Below, piece by piece: positions 2,865-20,468 of a DNA stretch of 20,468 nucleotides (its first letter is position 1; the number at the start of each line of letters is the position of its first letter). The translations under genes and the position numbers were made by a program. The notes under the pieces are model-generated. The model made no database searches, was not told where the DNA came from, and saw only the letters and a program-made list of their open reading frames with translations. This DNA is from a virus, in the IMG/VR virus record IMGVR_UViG_3300032229_000203, positions 1 through 20,468 of that record. One strand, written 5' to 3'.

Positions 2865-4889
2865 TTATTTAGGTTGATTGTCTGTAATTAGTTTCACTTC
2901 GCAAGCATCAGTTGTGCAGTAAGCCTCACCAATAGCATCAGCAGCCATACCAGCATAAACACCAGAGAAATCAATCGGAAAGAGTTTCATAACTCCATCG
3001 TTCTCGTAATCTTCAGCAGTAATCTGTGTGTAAGGCATCTGAGGATAGACATGGTTACCACTAGGCAAGAATGAGACAGTCTTCAGTTGACCATCGTACA
3101 TATGCAAAGCCGTACCAATAGCCGAGGCTTCCTTCTCTGGATCAAATGAGATCGTTACAGAGACAGAGTTATCTGACCAGTAGCGTTGAGCAGTAGCAGC
3201 AAGTGCCATCTTCTCGTAGATACTTACATCCTTCTCACTTCGCTTAGCCTCTGACTTGATAGGGAAGAAGACAACCGAAGTCGTATCAGGAGACTCACTT
3301 GCTGGTTCTACTCTGTAGTTAGCAAGTTTGAATAGTGGAAGCATTGGATCGTTGTTTGCAAAACGAATTGCACGATTGAAGTACTGACCACCTACAGTCC
3401 AGTGAACTCCTGGAGATTCTCCAGCCAAGATACTTACTGTTCCTGATGGCTTGACTGTTGTCATCTTGATTGACTCACGAATACCTAGCCACTCTGAGTA
3501 GTTTGTATCGTATGACTTGATGATCTTGTAGCCTTCATCCATCCACTGACGCAGGACAGGAAGTCCCTTGTTGTCTGCAAAGTTTGCAACACCTGATACA
3601 GATGTACCGATGCGACGGTTACGCTGCATGATGGCGTTGGTCTCTTCCCAGTGAGTTGGAAGCAGAGTCACAGTCTTTGCATACAGGTATGCAAACTTCA
3701 ATGTGCGCTTGAAATCATCAAGGTCTGTGTGGCGGTTCAAGTAAGTCTCAACCAAAGTACAGCACTCGTATGACTCTAGTGACTGCTCAGCACATGGGTT
3801 GTACCCTGCAATACGCCAGTCCTTGTTGTTGATTGGATCTGCAAGGCGACCATACTGCTTGGAGATGTCCATCCAGATAACTCCTGGCTCACCATTACGG
3901 GCGATGCCTTCGATGATGTTATCGAGGTTATCTCCTACATTGACTGCCACTGAGTTGTTTGACATCCAGCCATGAGTCATACGCTCTGGATACTTCTCGT
4001 AGTTCTTCAGGTTCAAGAACTCTTCATCGTCGATGCGACCGATCAATAGTTCTGCAGAGCGACGGACGTTTCCAGATACAACACATACACCGATCATGTT
4101 GCCGATGTCTGCGATGTCACGACGAGTTACCTTCTGACCAGCACGATCCTTAAATAGTTCAGTGATGTACTGGTGCAGTTTGATTAGCGGGTCTGCTCCT
4201 GCTGCGGTTCCACCGAAGGTCTTGATTGGTTCGCCTGCTGGACGGATCGCTTCGTAATTAAATACTGGAGTCTTCGTATCTGGCTTGAGGTAGGCATTGA
4301 TGAGGGCGGCTGTGGATTCAACCCAGCCTTCTCTGGTGTCTGGGATGTCATAGGTAGTCTCTCCTTGTGGTGCGTAAATAACAAACTCTTTGTCAGCGCC
4401 CTTGTCATCAAAGCCAACACCAACTCCTAGCATTGATGCTTCCATCAAGAATGCAAAGGGCTTTGCTGGGTCTGTCTTGACCATCGATCCAGTTGAAACG
4501 AAGGCGCAGTTCTGTAATGCTGCTGAGTTGCGTTGCTCATTGACAAGTGGCGTACCCATAACCCAAAGACCTCGTCCAGGTGGAGTCCACTTCAAGTTCC
4601 ATAAGCGATCGAATGCTTCTTTGGCTGAGGCTGCTGCCTTAGCATCTGACCATGGCAAGCGGTTCGTCTTGGCGTGATCCTTTTGAAGTGAGTACATGCC
4701 GTTGATGACTCGTTCACATACATCAACCCAAGTCTCCTTCGTACCATCTGCCTTCAGGCGAGAATAGGTACGCAAGAAAGTAATTTCTCCAACCGAATTT
4801 CCCGCTGCATCTTGATAACCAAAGGGTGCCTTCTTGGATCGATACGGACCAACGAAGTCTTCAGTTAGTTTGAAAGATAATGCAGTCAT
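2865..4889 (-). CDS. nrdJ: Adenosylcobalamin-dependent (class II) ribonucleoside-triphosphate reductase
   Basis: Reduces ribonucleotides to deoxyribonucleotides for phage DNA synthesis, using adenosylcobalamin to make a thiyl radical. The 674 residues match the monomeric Lactobacillus-type RTPR pattern: C128 in QNCAF, N364-P-C366-A-E368 in the NPCAE active loop, C377 eleven residues later (the usual spacing of the active-site pair), KPSGTVS at 480-486, and a C-terminal C658-x4-C663 pair that re-reduces the active site. Usual length is about 740, so this is slightly short but complete. ATG 4889 is preferred to the in-frame start at 4967, because the extra 26 residues do not resemble the family and an AGGG sequence lies just before 4889. 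It is the last gene of the leftward block, with a 171-base leader and a terminator behind it. Cobalamin would come from the host or environment. Confidence 0.95.
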   Translation of the reverse strand: MTALSFKLTEDFVGPYRSKKAPFGYQDAAGNSVGEITFLRTYSRLKADGTKETWVDVCERVINGMYSLQKDHAKTNRLPWSDAKAAASAKEAFDRLWNLKWTPPGRGLWVMGTPLVNEQRNSAALQNCAFVSTGSMVKTDPAKPFAFLMEASMLGVGVGFDDKGADKEFVIYAPQGETTYDIPDTREGWVESTAALINAYLKPDTKTPVFNYEAIRPAGEPIKTFGGTAAGADPLIKLHQYITELFKDRAGQKVTRRDIADIGNMIGVCVVSGNVRRSAELLIGRIDDEEFLNLKNYEKYPERMTHGWMSNNSVAVNVGDNLDNIIEGIARNGEPGVIWMDISKQYGRLADPINNKDWRIAGYNPCAEQSLESYECCTLVETYLNRHTDLDDFKRTLKFAYLYAKTVTLLPTHWEETNAIMQRNRRIGTSVSGVANFADNKGLPVLRQWMDEGYKIIKSYDTNYSEWLGIRESIKMTTVKPSGTVSILAGESPGVHWTVGGQYFNRAIRFANNDPMLPLFKLANYRVEPASESPDTTSVVFFPIKSEAKRSEKDVSIYEKMALAATAQRYWSDNSVSVTISFDPEKEASAIGTALHMYDGQLKTVSFLPSGNHVYPQMPYTQITAEDYENDGVMKLFPIDFSGVYAGMAADAIGEAYCTTDACEVKLITDNQPK

Positions 4890-5060
4890 AACCCCTACCA
4901 TTTCTATAAAAGTGTAAATACCCCTCAGTGGGTTGCTTAGTATTGCGTGTGGGAACCTATCATGCATCTGCTAACTTTGCGAAGTACTTATCGCAAAAGG
5001 AAATGGTCAACTACGGGTGAGATATGAATTACACCCTGTTAACTACTGTTATCAGATAAG
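4890..5060 (-). promoter_or_regulatory. Structured leader region of nrdJ
   Basis: This is the longest non-coding gap of the leftward block. On the transcribed strand it can form at least three hairpins: GGGTG/CACCC with arms at 5015-5019 and 5032-5036, TTTGCGA/TCGCAAA at 4976-4982 and 4991-4997, and ACCC/GGGT near 4921-4933. The minus strand also has a TTGACC hexamer near 5004-5009, but no good -10 hexamer at the right distance. It probably carries the nrdJ promoter or an mRNA regulatory element; which one cannot be decided from the sequence alone. Confidence 0.35.
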
Positions 5061-6566
5061 TTATTCTTCTATTGCTTCAGAGATAATCTTTGTAACGGTC
5101 TCTTCACGAATAGGGTTGGGGAACTCTTTGAGAGCCTGAGCACGATCTCCAAAGATTGCAGAGAGCACTCCACCAGAGGATTGTCGGCTGGCTGTGATCT
5201 GAATGAATTCCTTGTTCTGATCCATCTCGTTGACATTGCCCACTAACTTCAGCAAGCGATCGATCTCTTGCGAAAGATTTGGATCTGCGTATCCGCCATT
5301 CATTTCCTCAGCAAATCGCATAAAAGCAACTCTTTGCCCCTGCATTTCGATAATTGCAGTAAGTAACGCCTTCAGTTGCTCCTTAGTCTTTACCTCTACT
5401 GGAAGATTAAATGCACAAGTATTTTGCGGCTTGAACGCTGGACAGTTAGATGCAACAAAGCAGGTATCGCATTGGCGAAGAGAACTCTGCTGTGTTTTAA
5501 TGACGGGTACATCCATCAAAACATCGTTGCCCTCATCATCTGTATCGACGATAGTCTTCATCTTGAACCCGAAGACAGGCAAGTTTTGCATCTCTTCAGG
5601 GGCTCTTTCTACTGATCCACTGCGCTCCACTTTCCTCCCTTCTGCTCCACTGTTATCAGATGTGGATAGATCTAATCCCATCAACCCCGTCATGAACTCA
5701 TCGCTATTATCAGATAAGTTCTGCTCTTTACCGCCTTCGATAATGTGGAAGTTAGGTGATTTCTTGTCCATGTGTTCCTCTAGTTTCTTGTATGACCAGA
5801 CAGCAACTCTAGTTGCTTCAAGGGTACCATCTTTAACAAACTCCAAATAGTCTAGGCCAGCCTTGTCTACGATGCTCTTGTATCGAGGACGGGCTTGGTC
5901 TTTCATCTTCTTCGGATAACGAACCAGACGAGCACCATCCCAGATGATTGTCTCGCCTCTTCTCATGGGCGATAGCCATGACAATGTGCTGGCGGTGGCA
6001 AATGGTATGGATCTTAGGTTGTCTGGCTTGGCACATCCAAGGGCGTGATAGGTCACCTTGAACTGGTTGGAGTAGGTCCGTGTGAGAGCGGCCAAGTTAG
6101 TTACTGACTCGATCTCGTCATGCGGTATAGCCACATTGTGGAAGTTGCGTGACATCTCTGCCAACTTGCTCTGTCCATACTCTTGATGCCAGATCACCCA
6201 TAGTTTAGGGTCGTTACTGAAAAAGGAACGCTGTTGTTCTATCCATTCAAGGCCGAGTATTTGTGAGTCGAACTCTAAGAAACCTTCAGCACGATCTGCG
6301 TTGTTGACTAGGAACTCTTGGTAGTCAGCGGCTAGGTCAAGTAACTCTTGGCGGGACAGGCCAGCCTTGTCAGCCTGTGATGCCCCTGACTCGATGTAGA
6401 CCTTGGTCTCTGCGTCAAAGTGCTCGCTTATAAGCCATACCTTGGTCTTGGGCAGACCACGCTTACGAAGACCCCAAAAGTTGAGTCCCATCGACTCAAC
6501 ATTCATGCCTTCTAGCAGGGTGCGGTTGGAACCAACCTCAACACCTGAGAAGATAAGTTTAGTCAT
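5061..6566 (-). CDS. Two-domain protein: possible TGT-like barrel plus four-Cys domain
   Basis: A 501-residue protein that I cannot assign firmly. Residues 1-260 have landmarks reminiscent of tRNA-guanine transglycosylase and DpdA-type TIM barrels: LIFSGVEVGSN near the start, an ESGAS segment (59-63) where DSGAF is usual, FDSQILG (99-105), VIWHQEYG (124-131), IPHDEI (147-152), a HALG box (174-177) and ATASTLSWL (190-198) where an SxDSTSW-like box would fall. Both positions usually held by Asp are changed (Glu and Ser or Ala). Residues 283-360 are a polar linker. Residues 366-384 hold C366-x2-C369-x5-C375-x8-C384, a likely zinc site, followed by a helical region (390-445). The gene overlaps the HAD-fold gene upstream by 8 bases. 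If the barrel call is right, DNA or RNA base exchange is possible; a catalytically altered relative is equally likely. Confidence 0.5.
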   Translation of the reverse strand: MTKLIFSGVEVGSNRTLLEGMNVESMGLNFWGLRKRGLPKTKVWLISEHFDAETKVYIESGASQADKAGLSRQELLDLAADYQEFLVNNADRAEGFLEFDSQILGLEWIEQQRSFFSNDPKLWVIWHQEYGQSKLAEMSRNFHNVAIPHDEIESVTNLAALTRTYSNQFKVTYHALGCAKPDNLRSIPFATASTLSWLSPMRRGETIIWDGARLVRYPKKMKDQARPRYKSIVDKAGLDYLEFVKDGTLEATRVAVWSYKKLEEHMDKKSPNFHIIEGGKEQNLSDNSDEFMTGLMGLDLSTSDNSGAEGRKVERSGSVERAPEEMQNLPVFGFKMKTIVDTDDEGNDVLMDVPVIKTQQSSLRQCDTCFVASNCPAFKPQNTCAFNLPVEVKTKEQLKALLTAIIEMQGQRVAFMRFAEEMNGGYADPNLSQEIDRLLKLVGNVNEMDQNKEFIQITASRQSSGGVLSAIFGDRAQALKEFPNPIREETVTKIISEAIEE

Positions 6567-14912: not shown

Positions 14913-15174
14913 CTATGACCATCTCAATGGTCCCAAGATAACCTGCCCCGTCCGTCAAGTTATCTCTCTTATGCATGTATGTCTCTCGTGCAATCTTTAC
15001 CCAAGCCATCGCTAGTCCTACTTGTTCTTCAGTAATGTCAATACCGAAAATAACTTCCCAACCCTTTTTAATTCGGTTGAAGTTATCAAGAGGATGATCG
15101 TAAGTATAGTTACGCTCACCAGTGATTAAACTCTGCGCTTCTTCAAGAACAGTTGGCTTATGGGAGTCGGACAT
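14878..15174 (-). CDS. DUF6378-like phage protein
   Basis: A 98-residue all-helical protein with features I associate with the phage family DUF6378: ITGERNYTYDHPLDNF (17-32), GLAMAWVKIARE (53-64), and HKRDNLTDGAGYLG (68-81). The family is common beside phage replication genes and has no proven function; the conserved charged helices recall small nucleotide pyrophosphohydrolases, but this is speculative. ATG 15174 has AGGA five bases upstream and is preferred to an in-frame start at 15207. It overlaps the subtilase end by 17 bases and the resolvase start by 35. Confidence 0.75.
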   Translation of the reverse strand: MSDSHKPTVLEEAQSLITGERNYTYDHPLDNFNRIKKGWEVIFGIDITEEQVGLAMAWVKIARETYMHKRDNLTDGAGYLGTIEMVIDERNLRANKII

Positions 15175-16051
15175 ATTTTCCTGTCTGGAACTCGTTCTTA
15201 GCATCAACAGTTGTAGCCATCAACGCATTAAATGTAGCGTCAAAAGTTTCTTTTCTATTCAGTAACCACCAACCAGCAAAGGCTGCTGTTGCTCCTGATG
15301 TACCTGCTGTAAACCTTAGTGTTCCATCAAGTTGTAGAGCATTCCAACGACCATTCAAAAAGAAGTCAGTCTGTCCTTGTGCGCCGTTACTGTAGCGTGC
15401 AATGTATGGAGACGCATCTTTGTCGTATTCAATTGCACCTCTTCCTGGATTATCTGTAGCACCTACTGAGACAGTGTCTGTCAAACATGCAGGTGCATGT
15501 GTAGCAGTACGATTACCGTTGTTTCCAACAGCAGCAACTACTGGGACGTTTGCTGCTTTAAGGGCTGCAATATTTTCTGCCAATCCTGCTGGAACCTTGC
15601 AGTTTGCAAAGATGGCTCCTTGAGAAATACTGACAACTGCAATGTTGTGCGTAACTCTGTTAGCAACAACCCAGTTAAGAGCGTTGTTGACATCTGATAG
15701 AGAGTAAAACCCTTGATTACCCGCAGGAGTCATTCCAACAATACGAATAGGAATAACTTTTGCTGATGGATTAACACGAAGAACTAACGAAATCATCTGT
15801 GTTCCATGGCTGAAGTTTCTGTCTTTTGTTGCTGGAAGGTCTGCAGCGCCTGTTCCTTCCATCATCTGCTTTCCATTTGGACACTTGTACGAAGACAAAA
15901 TACAAACCTCATAAGAGATGCTGTCCTTGAATAAAGAAGTGTTAGTGCCAGTGTCGATAACAACAACTGCTGGTGGTGTATTTGCCTGTACTGGTACCGC
16001 CGTGGTACCAAGTACCATAATTGATACAAGTAGTGTAAGTAATTTTTTCAT
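15158..16051 (-). CDS. Secreted subtilisin-like serine protease
   Basis: A 297-residue S8-family peptidase. MKKLLTLLVSIMVLGTTAVPVQAN is a Sec signal peptide, probably cut after VQA (residue 23). All catalytic elements are present: D33 in VVIDTG, H82 in SHGTQM, the oxyanion Asn in VGNNGN (176-180) and S252 in GTSGA. Cysteines C50, C57, C151 and C189 could form disulfides outside the cell. No propeptide domain is seen between signal and catalytic core, so maturation may be simple. The start overlaps the 162-residue gene by ATGA and the end overlaps the DUF6378-like gene, so it is truly part of the replication operon. Possible roles are modifying host surface proteins, attacking competitors or processing proteins at lysis; the sequence does not choose between them. 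Confidence 0.9.
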   Translation of the reverse strand: MKKLLTLLVSIMVLGTTAVPVQANTPPAVVVIDTGTNTSLFKDSISYEVCILSSYKCPNGKQMMEGTGAADLPATKDRNFSHGTQMISLVLRVNPSAKVIPIRIVGMTPAGNQGFYSLSDVNNALNWVVANRVTHNIAVVSISQGAIFANCKVPAGLAENIAALKAANVPVVAAVGNNGNRTATHAPACLTDTVSVGATDNPGRGAIEYDKDASPYIARYSNGAQGQTDFFLNGRWNALQLDGTLRFTAGTSGATAAFAGWWLLNRKETFDATFNALMATTVDAKNEFQTGKYVRLP

Positions 16052-16536: not shown

Positions 16537-17381
16537 TATTCCTCAATCTGGTTGCACTGTTTGCAACCGTCCTCGCTCACGTTACATAGAGGCATTACTC
16601 CAGCCTCAACTGCCTTGATAATCTTCTCTGCTTTGAAGAAGATTCTATCTACAACTTCGTAGTCAGCCTTGATTGTGAACTCTTTGTATGCTTGGTTTGA
16701 CTTTAGTTCGTACAAGAAGACAATCTCTTTAGGCGCTACATCTCCAAACATACGCTTGGCTAACTCTAAGTACATCTGTCCCTGCAACAAGTGACCTCTG
16801 AATGGGCGACGAATGTTCTTCCATGCCTTGTTCAAGTCACCATCTGCGTCGTAGAGAAGGTCAGGTGCTTCAAAGCGTAATGTTCCTTCACCAATAGATT
16901 TGATCTCAATAAGGAAATCATCACCTAGACCTTTGACCCAGCCATCAGTATGTCCTGCAATACGCAACTCTGGATCAAGCATCTTGACCTCGTCGTATCG
17001 CAGTGTGGCGCACTCGCAGTGTTGACACTTGGCAGGTGATAGGCCAGAGGTAATTCCTTTGCAGTTTACACACTTGAAGTCTCCCCAGAGATTGCCCATC
17101 TCATAGACGCGGTTCTGCCACTTCTCATGGATGAAGTGACCCTCATCAAAGATGTTCTGCAGTGTAAGCCCTGGGTTCTTCTCCATCTTCTTACCACCAG
17201 TAAGTAGGTAATAGGAGTAACGATGACAGAAGTCAGCCTTGATCATTTCAGAAGGGTGAAGCACTGTGGTGCTTCGATCTCCTGGTTCTTTCTTCATGAG
17301 GTGACGTTCAATGTGACCAGTAAGACGGCTATCTGTCTTCTTAGTATCTAGATACTTCTGGAGGTCTGTCTTGGAAGGCAT
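16536..17381 (-). CDS. Cas4/RecB-like PD-(D/E)XK exonuclease with Fe-S cysteines
   Basis: A 281-residue nuclease likely to trim DNA ends for recombination. The core motifs are H82 or H85 in EGHFIHEKW, D146 in GHTDGW, E159-x-K161 in LIEIKS and Q200-x3-Y204 in LLQGQMYLEL. Cas4 and AddB proteins hold a 4Fe-4S cluster with one Cys before the core and three at the C-terminus; here C52 (FCHRYSYY) and C266, C273, C276 fit. In addition C104-x2-C107 and C119-x2-C122 form a zinc-ribbon-like insert between the His and Asp motifs. It is coupled by TAATG to WhiB upstream and to the helical protein downstream. No Cas1, Cas2 or CRISPR repeats are in the window, so a CRISPR role is not indicated. Confidence 0.88.
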   Translation of the reverse strand: MPSKTDLQKYLDTKKTDSRLTGHIERHLMKKEPGDRSTTVLHPSEMIKADFCHRYSYYLLTGGKKMEKNPGLTLQNIFDEGHFIHEKWQNRVYEMGNLWGDFKCVNCKGITSGLSPAKCQHCECATLRYDEVKMLDPELRIAGHTDGWVKGLGDDFLIEIKSIGEGTLRFEAPDLLYDADGDLNKAWKNIRRPFRGHLLQGQMYLELAKRMFGDVAPKEIVFLYELKSNQAYKEFTIKADYEVVDRIFFKAEKIIKAVEAGVMPLCNVSEDGCKQCNQIEE

Positions 17382-17722
17382 TAGTAGTCCTTGTCTATGC
17401 TGAAAATAAATTCTTCTAGGGTCTGTATTGTCTTCTTAGTCTTCTTTAATTTTTGCCACTTTCGCATGAGGGCGTTTCTTTCTCGGTGACTGAGTCCTCC
17501 CCAGATTCCATGAGGCTCGTCTCGTCGAACTGCATCCCATAAACACTCTGCTCGTACTGGACAAGGGTTCTTTCCTGTCTCACCGAAACAGAATGCTTTT
17601 GCCCTGTTAGCGATCTCTTTGTACTGCTCTTTGTCACGAGGAGGGTAGAAGATATCTGTGTCTTGACCTGAGCATCTTGCTTGGTATCTCCATGCGTACT
17701 CTGGTTCATCAAAGTCTTCCAT
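17381..17722 (-). CDS. WhiB-family iron-sulfur regulator
   Basis: A 113-residue protein of the actinobacterial WhiB (Wbl) family, which bind a 4Fe-4S cluster and act with the main sigma factor. C17, C45, C54 and C60 are the cluster ligands, CPVRAECL is the family core and GIWGG (72-76) the diagnostic turn, followed by SHRERNALMRKWQKLKKTKK, a basic DNA-contact region. The second and third cysteines are eight residues apart instead of the usual two, because six extra residues (within FGETGKNP) are inserted. It overlaps the PD-(D/E)XK gene by 14 bases and is coupled to the Cas4-like gene by TAATG. Phage WhiB proteins can reprogram host transcription; the target here is unknown. Confidence 0.92.
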   Translation of the reverse strand: MEDFDEPEYAWRYQARCSGQDTDIFYPPRDKEQYKEIANRAKAFCFGETGKNPCPVRAECLWDAVRRDEPHGIWGGLSHRERNALMRKWQKLKKTKKTIQTLEEFIFSIDKDY

Positions 17723-18035: not shown

Positions 18036-18267
18036 GTTCTATTTTGCCTTCCTCGTAACCTTCGATCAAGCGTGGTACAAGGAAGAACAGTGCTTCTCTC
18101 CAGAAACAAGTACCGCAACCACAGAATGGTTCTCCTGACAAGGTCTCAGGAATTACATCCTCAGTACCATCCCAGACCGCTTCAAAAAGCATGTCGGTGT
18201 AATCCTCTACGCCCTTCTCCAGTACCTGCGCCCACTCTTCGTCATTTACTACAAACTTCTTAGTCAT
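18025..18267 (-). CDS. Small CGC-x2-C protein next to recA
   Basis: An 80-residue acidic protein. ATG 18267 is chosen over 18303 because GGAGG lies seven bases upstream and it overlaps the RecA stop by only eight bases. It contains GEPFCGCGTCFWREALFF, with C49, C51 and C54 close together, and a C-terminal acidic helix. Three close cysteines could bind metal with a fourth ligand from elsewhere. No named family recognised; the tight coupling suggests a role with the RecA-like protein. Confidence 0.7.
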   Translation of the reverse strand: MTKKFVVNDEEWAQVLEKGVEDYTDMLFEAVWDGTEDVIPETLSGEPFCGCGTCFWREALFFLVPRLIEGYEEGKIELED

Positions 18268-19306
18268 CGCTGTCCTCCGCCATTGGTAGATCTGATGTTT
18301 CAAACACTAACTTTTGAATCTGTTCTTTCAGATCCACTTCTTCACGAATACTTGCGATCACTGGATCAATACCTTGCCACTTTCTTTCGCCAAAGTAATA
18401 CCATCCGCCCTTACGCTGAATGATCTCTTTGACAACTGCAAGTGACGCAACTTCTTTTGCAAAGTCATACTCACCAGCAGCACAATCTCCACCTTCTGCA
18501 AAGTAAAAGTCAAAGTATGCAACACGCTGTGGTGGTGCAGTCTTGTTTTTCAATGTGCGAACCTTGATGCGTTGACCTACACGATTCTTATTACCGCTAG
18601 GTCCAACTTCAATCCACTCATCTCTGCGAATCTCGCAACGAGTAAAGAATGCATAGTTCTTTCCTTCACCACCAGGAGTGGTACGAGGGTCTCCATGCAT
18701 CACACCGATCTTCATGCGGTACTGGTTGATTATGAGACCGAGCACTGGACGTTCATCCTCAACCAGACTGCGCTTGATTGCAGAACCAACTACACGAAAG
18801 AACTTGTTGGTTAGGAGTGCTCCCCTTCCAACAGTCATTTCATTCATGTCCTTCTCCATTTCGGGGGCTGGTGAAAGAGCAGGAAGGGAGTCAATAACAA
18901 TGGCGTCTACTGACTTTGATTCTGCGAACTCTATGACGGCTTGGTAAGCCTCTTCCATAATGTTTGTTTCAATAACAATTACTTTGCTGGTGTCCACTCC
19001 GCACATCTCTGCGTACTCTGGAACCCACTGCTCTGCAGCAACCCATACAGTTGTATGATCTTCTTTCAGTGCTTGGTTTGCTGCGATTGTCTTAAGCGCA
19101 ACCGCTGTCTTTCCATGCGACGGTTCGCCAATGAGTTCGTTCCACTGATTACCAGGGAAGCCACCACCGAGAACATAATCAAGAGTGGTAGAGCCACTAG
19201 TAATCCGAGGAATAAGATCAGACCGAATATCAGACGCAATAACCACCACATTATTGCCAAACTTTTTGTTAAGGGTTGCAACAATTTTTCGTGCTTCATC
19301 ATTCAT
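18260..19306 (-). CDS. recA: RecA-like recombinase
   Basis: ATP-driven strand-exchange protein of 348 residues, about the length of bacterial RecA (around 350). Walker A is GEPSHGKT (60-67, RecA usually GPESSGKT), the catalytic Glu is E92 in WVAAEQWVPEYAE, Walker B is DAIVIDS (134-140), and the DNA-binding loop 2 appears as TTPGGEGKNYAFF, where RecA has TTGGNALKFY. The N-terminal oligomerisation helix (1-17) and the ITSGSTTLDYVLGGGFPGNQ segment (35-54) are typical. The acidic tail AEDSDD also resembles RecA. ATGA overlap with the zinc-ribbon gene and GGGAG nine bases before the ATG set the start. It probably supports phage replication and recombination with the nucleases downstream. Confidence 0.92.
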   Translation of the reverse strand: MNDEARKIVATLNKKFGNNVVVIASDIRSDLIPRITSGSTTLDYVLGGGFPGNQWNELIGEPSHGKTAVALKTIAANQALKEDHTTVWVAAEQWVPEYAEMCGVDTSKVIVIETNIMEEAYQAVIEFAESKSVDAIVIDSLPALSPAPEMEKDMNEMTVGRGALLTNKFFRVVGSAIKRSLVEDERPVLGLIINQYRMKIGVMHGDPRTTPGGEGKNYAFFTRCEIRRDEWIEVGPSGNKNRVGQRIKVRTLKNKTAPPQRVAYFDFYFAEGGDCAAGEYDFAKEVASLAVVKEIIQRKGGWYYFGERKWQGIDPVIASIREEVDLKEQIQKLVFETSDLPMAEDSDD

Positions 19307-19701
19307 CCGTCAATTCTCCCAATAATCCCTTGCGGGTTCCAGTTGCTTTGCACATCATTACCGATAGCACCCTTAGCACTACCTTCAACTTTTGCTCCAG
19401 TCAGTGCTCCATAACGACTTCCTGATTGACTAATTGGATAGCCACAGTCATAACAGCGTGGTGCAGCATTCTGAACAGACATGTAATTAGTTCCACCACA
19501 CTCTGGGCATGATGCTGTCTGTGATGCACTCTGTGCTCGTGATGCAGGTTGCTGTGGTTGCACAGGTTGAAACTGAGTCATCGGTTGTTGCGAGGGTGGC
19601 ATAGGGTTATTTACAGGACGAGGTGCTGCAACAGGAACCTGTTGTTGCGGTGCCTGTGGCTGTGCACCTAGTTGCTTTGCCCACCAGTCTGCATTACTCA
19701 C
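19303..19701 (-). CDS. Zinc-ribbon protein with Pro/Gln-rich N-terminus
   Basis: A 132-residue protein. Residues 12-62 are a disordered Pro/Gln-rich segment; C65-x2-C68 (CPECGG) and C83-x2-C86 (CYDCGY) form a zinc ribbon; the tail SQSGSRYGAL and NWNPQGIIGRI (about 90-130) looks conserved. GTG 19701 overlaps the polA TGA by four bases (GTGA) and has GGGGAG seven bases upstream, so it is preferred to the in-frame GTG at 19716. Wedged between polA and recA, it may link replication and recombination proteins, but there is no direct evidence. Confidence 0.78.
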   Translation of the reverse strand: MSNADWWAKQLGAQPQAPQQQVPVAAPRPVNNPMPPSQQPMTQFQPVQPQQPASRAQSASQTASCPECGGTNYMSVQNAAPRCYDCGYPISQSGSRYGALTGAKVEGSAKGAIGNDVQSNWNPQGIIGRIDG

Positions 19702-20468
19702 TTTGCTTCTCCCCACTTGTTTACTATCTTTACATCTGCAATAAGAGGAACTGTAATCTCTGGTAGGTGAATACCTTCCATCGACACACGGATTGCTTCG
19801 GCTGTCTCTTCTGCTAGATCTTCACGAGCAACGGTAACCAATTCATCGTGGATAGTCAAAACGACATTCACATCTGGTTCATCAGTAAAACAAGAATGTG
19901 CTCTAACAATCGCTAATTTCATTAAATCTGCAGCAGATCCTTGAATTACTGTATTAAATGCCTGACGATCTGCTCGTGATTTAAGGCCTCGTTCATTGCT
20001 CTTTAACTCTGGTATGTAGCGACGGCGACCAAAGATAGTTTCTACATAAGGTATAGGAGCCTTGCCAGTTGCTTGACGGATCACCTTAGCCTTGTACTTA
20101 GAGATGTCATGGAACTGTGCCTCAAATCTAGTCAATAGATCCTTGGCATCTGTTACAGAACAACCGATGCTTTGTGCAATCTTCTCTGGACCAACTCCGT
20201 AAGCAATCGATAGAACCAATACCTTTCCAGCCTTGCGATCTACTCCCATGGTGTCACCGATAGTTGTGTAGATATCTCCACCAGTTCTGTAGTTCTCTAC
20301 CATAATTGGGTCACCTGAGAAGGATGCAATGATGCGTGGCTCAATCTGTGAGTAGTTAGCCACAATTAATTTATGTCCAGGTGGAGCAATAAATAGGTTA
20401 CGAATTAGTTTTCCGTACTCACCACTACTAGGGATGTTCTGTAGATTTGGGTCACTACTGGAGAAACG
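19698..20468 (-). CDS. polA: Family A DNA polymerase, C-terminal part, with motif A Asp changed to Asn
   Basis: The last 256 residues of a replicative DNA polymerase I-type enzyme; the start lies beyond the right edge. Visible landmarks: RFSSSDPNLQNIP at the window edge, motif A as VANYSQIEPR, the O-helix of motif B with R, K, L and YG at four-residue spacing (RKAGKVLVLSIAYG), DRQAFNTVIQGSAADLMKL, and motif C as IHDELV. In motif A the metal-binding Asp (E. coli D705) is Asn, codon AAC at 20357-20355. The position matching E. coli F762 is Leu, codon CTA at 20213-20211. The motif C Asp-Glu is intact. No frameshift is seen. It starts the visible leftward operon and is coupled to the zinc-ribbon gene by GTGA. 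Confidence 0.95.
   Translation of the reverse strand, partial: RFSSSDPNLQNIPSSGEYGKLIRNLFIAPPGHKLIVANYSQIEPRIIASFSGDPIMVENYRTGGDIYTTIGDTMGVDRKAGKVLVLSIAYGVGPEKIAQSIGCSVTDAKDLLTRFEAQFHDISKYKAKVIRQATGKAPIPYVETIFGRRRYIPELKSNERGLKSRADRQAFNTVIQGSAADLMKLAIVRAHSCFTDEPDVNVVLTIHDELVTVAREDLAEETAEAIRVSMEGIHLPEITVPLIADVKIVNKWGEAK

Follow-up and report, generated by a model that had tools for sequence, protein, structure and literature searches.

In Family A DNA polymerases, the Asp of motif A (D705 in E. coli DNA polymerase I) and the Asp of motif C bind the pair of metal ions used in nucleotidyl transfer, and human POLG1, the mitochondrial Family A enzyme, has D890 at the motif A position. The D384A form of the polymerase of the Thermus phage Tt72, altered at the D705 position, retained 4 ± 2% activity with unaltered DNA binding (PMC9324360), and POLG1 D890N, used as a dominant negative, depletes mtDNA (PMC4361992). 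A survey of metagenomic viral PolA enzymes kept only sequences with D705 (PMC9069017). Our literature search found no papers on T7 RNA polymerase D537N.

The window analyzed here is an entire virus record of 20,468 bases (IMGVR_UViG_3300032229_000203), and its last gene (19698..20468, minus strand) encodes, in an open-ended frame truncated by the contig end, the last 256 residues of a Family A DNA polymerase. A profile search matched PF00476 (DNA_pol_A) across fragment residues 1-254 at 8.7e-70, and comparison with Taq gave 2e-43 in phmmer. A sequence-only reading of this DNA had reported an AAC (Asn) codon in place of the catalytic Asp of motif A. Translation of the minus strand around codon 38 (...HKLIVANYSQIEPRIIAS...) bore this out, placing the codon at 20355..20357, the site equivalent to E. 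coli Pol I D705. Motif A (20334..20363, minus strand) reads VANYSQIEPR here and VADYSQIEPR in the relatives, and the NYSQIE of the fragment aligned with the motif A DYSQIE of solved Taq enzymes, so that the consensus has Asn where Family A has its catalytic Asp. The same reading was correct that the other signature elements are intact: the translation and the homologue tally showed motif C HDE at residues 207-209 (19842..19850, minus strand) and the O-helix RKAGKVLVLSIAYG at residues 78-91 (20196..20237, minus strand), with its Arg, Lys and Tyr in place. The gene is a Family A polymerase by descent despite the Asn, and the doubt concerns its activity. The frame, also described as open, is so over its visible part; the N-terminal portion, some 411 residues with the exonuclease domain among them, falls past the end of the contig. 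The contig breaks inside polA, with the base at codon 38 only 111 bases from the break.

Two further residues of the fragment are common among its homologues. At 20337-20339 motif A has EPR, compared with ELR in most Family A enzymes, and Pro was present in 237 of 239 distinct viral homologues; judging from these, the Pro is a family trait that marks the phage group and is unrelated to the Asn change. Position 762 of the O-helix (E. coli numbering; 20211-20213) is Leu, as in 236 of the 239, and the residue class at this position is used for sorting viral PolA enzymes.

The homologue tally covered every locus fetched, residue 38 of the query being masked, and 152 of the viral homologues came from scans without selection for Asp. 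At the motif A position all 239 distinct viral homologues and all 80 cellular ones had Asp, leaving the fragment as the sole exception, and all 80 of its nearest IMG/VR relatives (79-98% identical) had Asp, encoded by GAC in 38 and by GAT in 42. Chance variation at a loose site is ruled out by the viral count, and a clade carrying Asn by the lack of Asn in any of the relatives. We also scanned 2.9 million viral contigs (IMG/VR) for the Asn form in three degenerate codings (AAY TAY TCN CAR ATH GAR CC, an AGY serine form and an ELR form). These scans gave 8, 1 and 1 matches, ten in total, all of which were other proteins or short frames and none a polymerase; they may omit the window's own record and very near records, such that a near-identical duplicate could be hidden. 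At eight key positions (the Asp, Tyr, Glu and Arg of motif A, the Lys and Tyr of the O-helix, and the Asp and Glu of motif C) not one substitution occurred among the roughly 1,900 residues observed in the relatives, so that a lone lesion at the active site resembles noise more than family variation. On the alignments, then, Asn is not a lineage trait. The sequence-only reading had left the choice between a consensus error and an unusual or inactive polymerase, and had proposed that close homologues sharing the Asn would mark it as real and selected; the uniform Asp among the relatives instead favors an error or a stray mutation over a selected trait.

Full-length polA in two relatives, L002 and L010, encodes 667 amino acids, with an N-terminal 3'-5' exonuclease domain (PF01612) followed by the polymerase domain. 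Fourteen relative contigs of 20-100 kb had one PF00476 match each, and the ten long relatives among them had no PolB or Pol III alpha, leading us to reject the idea that another polymerase renders PolA dispensable. PolA is therefore probably the replicative enzyme of the phage, and loss of the Asp should be near-lethal. The term replicative had been applied to this gene from the start; we infer it from the relatives. Downstream of polA, a profile match identified a RecA/UvsX-like recombinase gene (18260..19306, minus strand) that is intact and in the same order in the relatives.

Apart from codon 38, the polymerase gene is under strong purifying selection, with dN/dS 0.04-0.06. Fragment and nearest relative (L002) differed at six residues and at 54 bases, of which 46 fell in third positions. 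In this comparison dN/dS was 0.037 (0.032 leaving out codon 38), and other near relatives gave values of up to 0.063. D38N was the only private change of the fragment at a column invariant in all 80 relatives, and 127 columns were fully invariant in the set formed by the window and these relatives. A natural inactive or pseudo-polymerase, whether from a loss shared by a clade or from relaxed selection, was rejected because no relative had Asn and dN/dS was about 0.04. Relative to the GAC of the nearest relatives, the base change is a G>A transition on the coding strand, consistent with the one-base change proposed earlier. This is also the one observation in favor of a hypermutated or decaying copy, through deaminase damage or in a defective prophage, of which hypermutation had likewise been suggested. 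The rest of the window does not fit that suggestion. Across the 5.76 kb that the window has in common with ten relatives, its private changes numbered 29 (7 C>T, 4 G>A, 7 T>C, 4 A>G and 7 transversions), seven of them non-synonymous, and the spectrum was balanced, with C>T and G>A together at 11 and the reverse transitions also at 11. The compared genes of the window were open, co-linear and without stops or frameshifts, and matched the relatives over their full length, with the exception of two small genes near the left end whose matches were shorter or weaker. Given the purifying selection, the open neighboring genes and the lack of a C>T/G>A excess, neither decay nor hypermutation fits, and we consider a copy of this kind scarcely credible. 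Private changes were not significantly clustered toward the contig end either: two fell in the last 114 bases, compared with 0.6 expected.

Several other genes in the window drew our attention. The gene at 15158-16051 (minus strand) encodes a subtilase-family protein with a signal-like N-terminus, here in a phage, and holds four of the seven private non-synonymous changes. A 501-residue protein at 5061-6566 (minus strand) matched PHROG 887, queuine tRNA-ribosyltransferase (1.2e-59), and may act in 7-deazaguanine DNA modification as a DpdA-like enzyme. A tyrosine integrase is encoded at 307-1584 on the plus strand, opposite to most genes, near a B12-dependent ribonucleotide reductase (2865-4967, minus strand); the same order occurs in the 66-kb relative L422, and the phage may be temperate. 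The listed ATG of the reductase probably lies upstream of the true start: in L422 a stop codon interrupts the extension, and the shared frame begins near MTALSFKLTED. A WhiB-like regulator (17381-17722, minus strand) suggests an actinobacterial host, and the cellular genomes searched had no polA closer than about 42% identity.

What has to be explained is a unique Asn codon near the end of a contig, in a gene that is otherwise intact. We think it probable, though far from certain, that the Asn is a consensus or library error. The gene would then be the usual PolA of a freshwater phage group, single and of replicative type, joining a 3'-5' exonuclease to a Family A polymerase. A one-base error would have entered the assembled consensus near the contig end inside polA, for instance through damage or miscalling of a base that few reads carried; the phage itself would encode Asp, and we infer that the reads would not support the Asn codon. 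At an assumed per-base error rate of about 1e-4, chance would place about one lesion of this kind in several hundred sequences of the group, and it is the one that a reader hunting oddities would single out. The position near the contig end supports an error only weakly, because private changes are not significantly denser there. Counting against an error, nothing else in the window points to poor quality, its compared genes being open and co-linear with those of the relatives, and in one consensus a real mutation is indistinguishable from an error. The next most likely explanation, though less probable than not, is that the Asn is real and that a single phage genome or a local subpopulation recently acquired it as a loss-of-function mutation. 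Such an allele would be transient: the polymerase would be nearly inactive, the genome would replicate only with help from co-infecting Asp phages, and selection would remove it. Equivalent substitutions cripple Family A enzymes (Tt72 D384A, PMC9324360; POLG1 D890N, PMC4361992), and the remainder of the gene is undecayed, as expected for a very recent change. A near-lethal allele should, however, be rare and seldom reach a consensus; the IMG/VR scans contained no second Asn copy, and the contigs of the relatives have no second DNA polymerase to carry it.

A real and useful Asn, in a PolA that works or has been repurposed with Asn replacing the motif A Asp, is in our judgment very unlikely. The enzyme might be slow, with altered metal use, or might be kept for its exonuclease or DNA binding as another polymerase did the synthesis. 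The preserved frame, motif C and O-helix would agree with this, and by general chemistry an Asn side chain can still offer one oxygen ligand. Asn-Tyr is a slow deamidation site, making it unlikely that post-translational deamidation of Asn to Asp restores activity. Such enzymes could have been overlooked, as the metagenomic survey screened out sequences without D705 (PMC9069017). Against an adapted enzyme, no relative shares the change, no compensating changes accompany D38N at the invariant columns, the ten long relatives have no other DNA polymerase, and the Ala mutant of the Tt72 phage enzyme is nearly dead (PMC9324360). A real and active Asn enzyme would contradict the view that two-metal catalysis by Family A polymerases needs the carboxylates of both motif A and motif C. 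Returning to the probable error, single residues near the ends of metagenome contigs need a read check before anyone describes a protein as inactive or unusual, and surveys that filter out sequences lacking D705 conceal errors and real exceptions alike.

Among known systems, the closest is the PolA of L002 (IMGVR_UViG_3300044949_000098), which is identical to the fragment at 250/256 residues, with 93% DNA identity and a shared downstream gene order, but has Asp (GAC) in motif A and a full-length gene of 667 residues. Bacterial DNA polymerase I of the Klenow type (E. coli, Taq) aligns across the fragment in palm, fingers, motif A, O-helix and motif C; it differs from the phage group, where the relatives show no 5' nuclease domain, Leu stands at 762 and EPR replaces ELR in motif A family-wide, and the Asn at 705 sets apart this fragment only. 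The Tt72 D384A polymerase is likewise a phage exonuclease-polymerase substituted at the same motif A Asp; unlike the fragment, it is a laboratory mutant with Ala in place of Asn at this site, and it has 4% activity.
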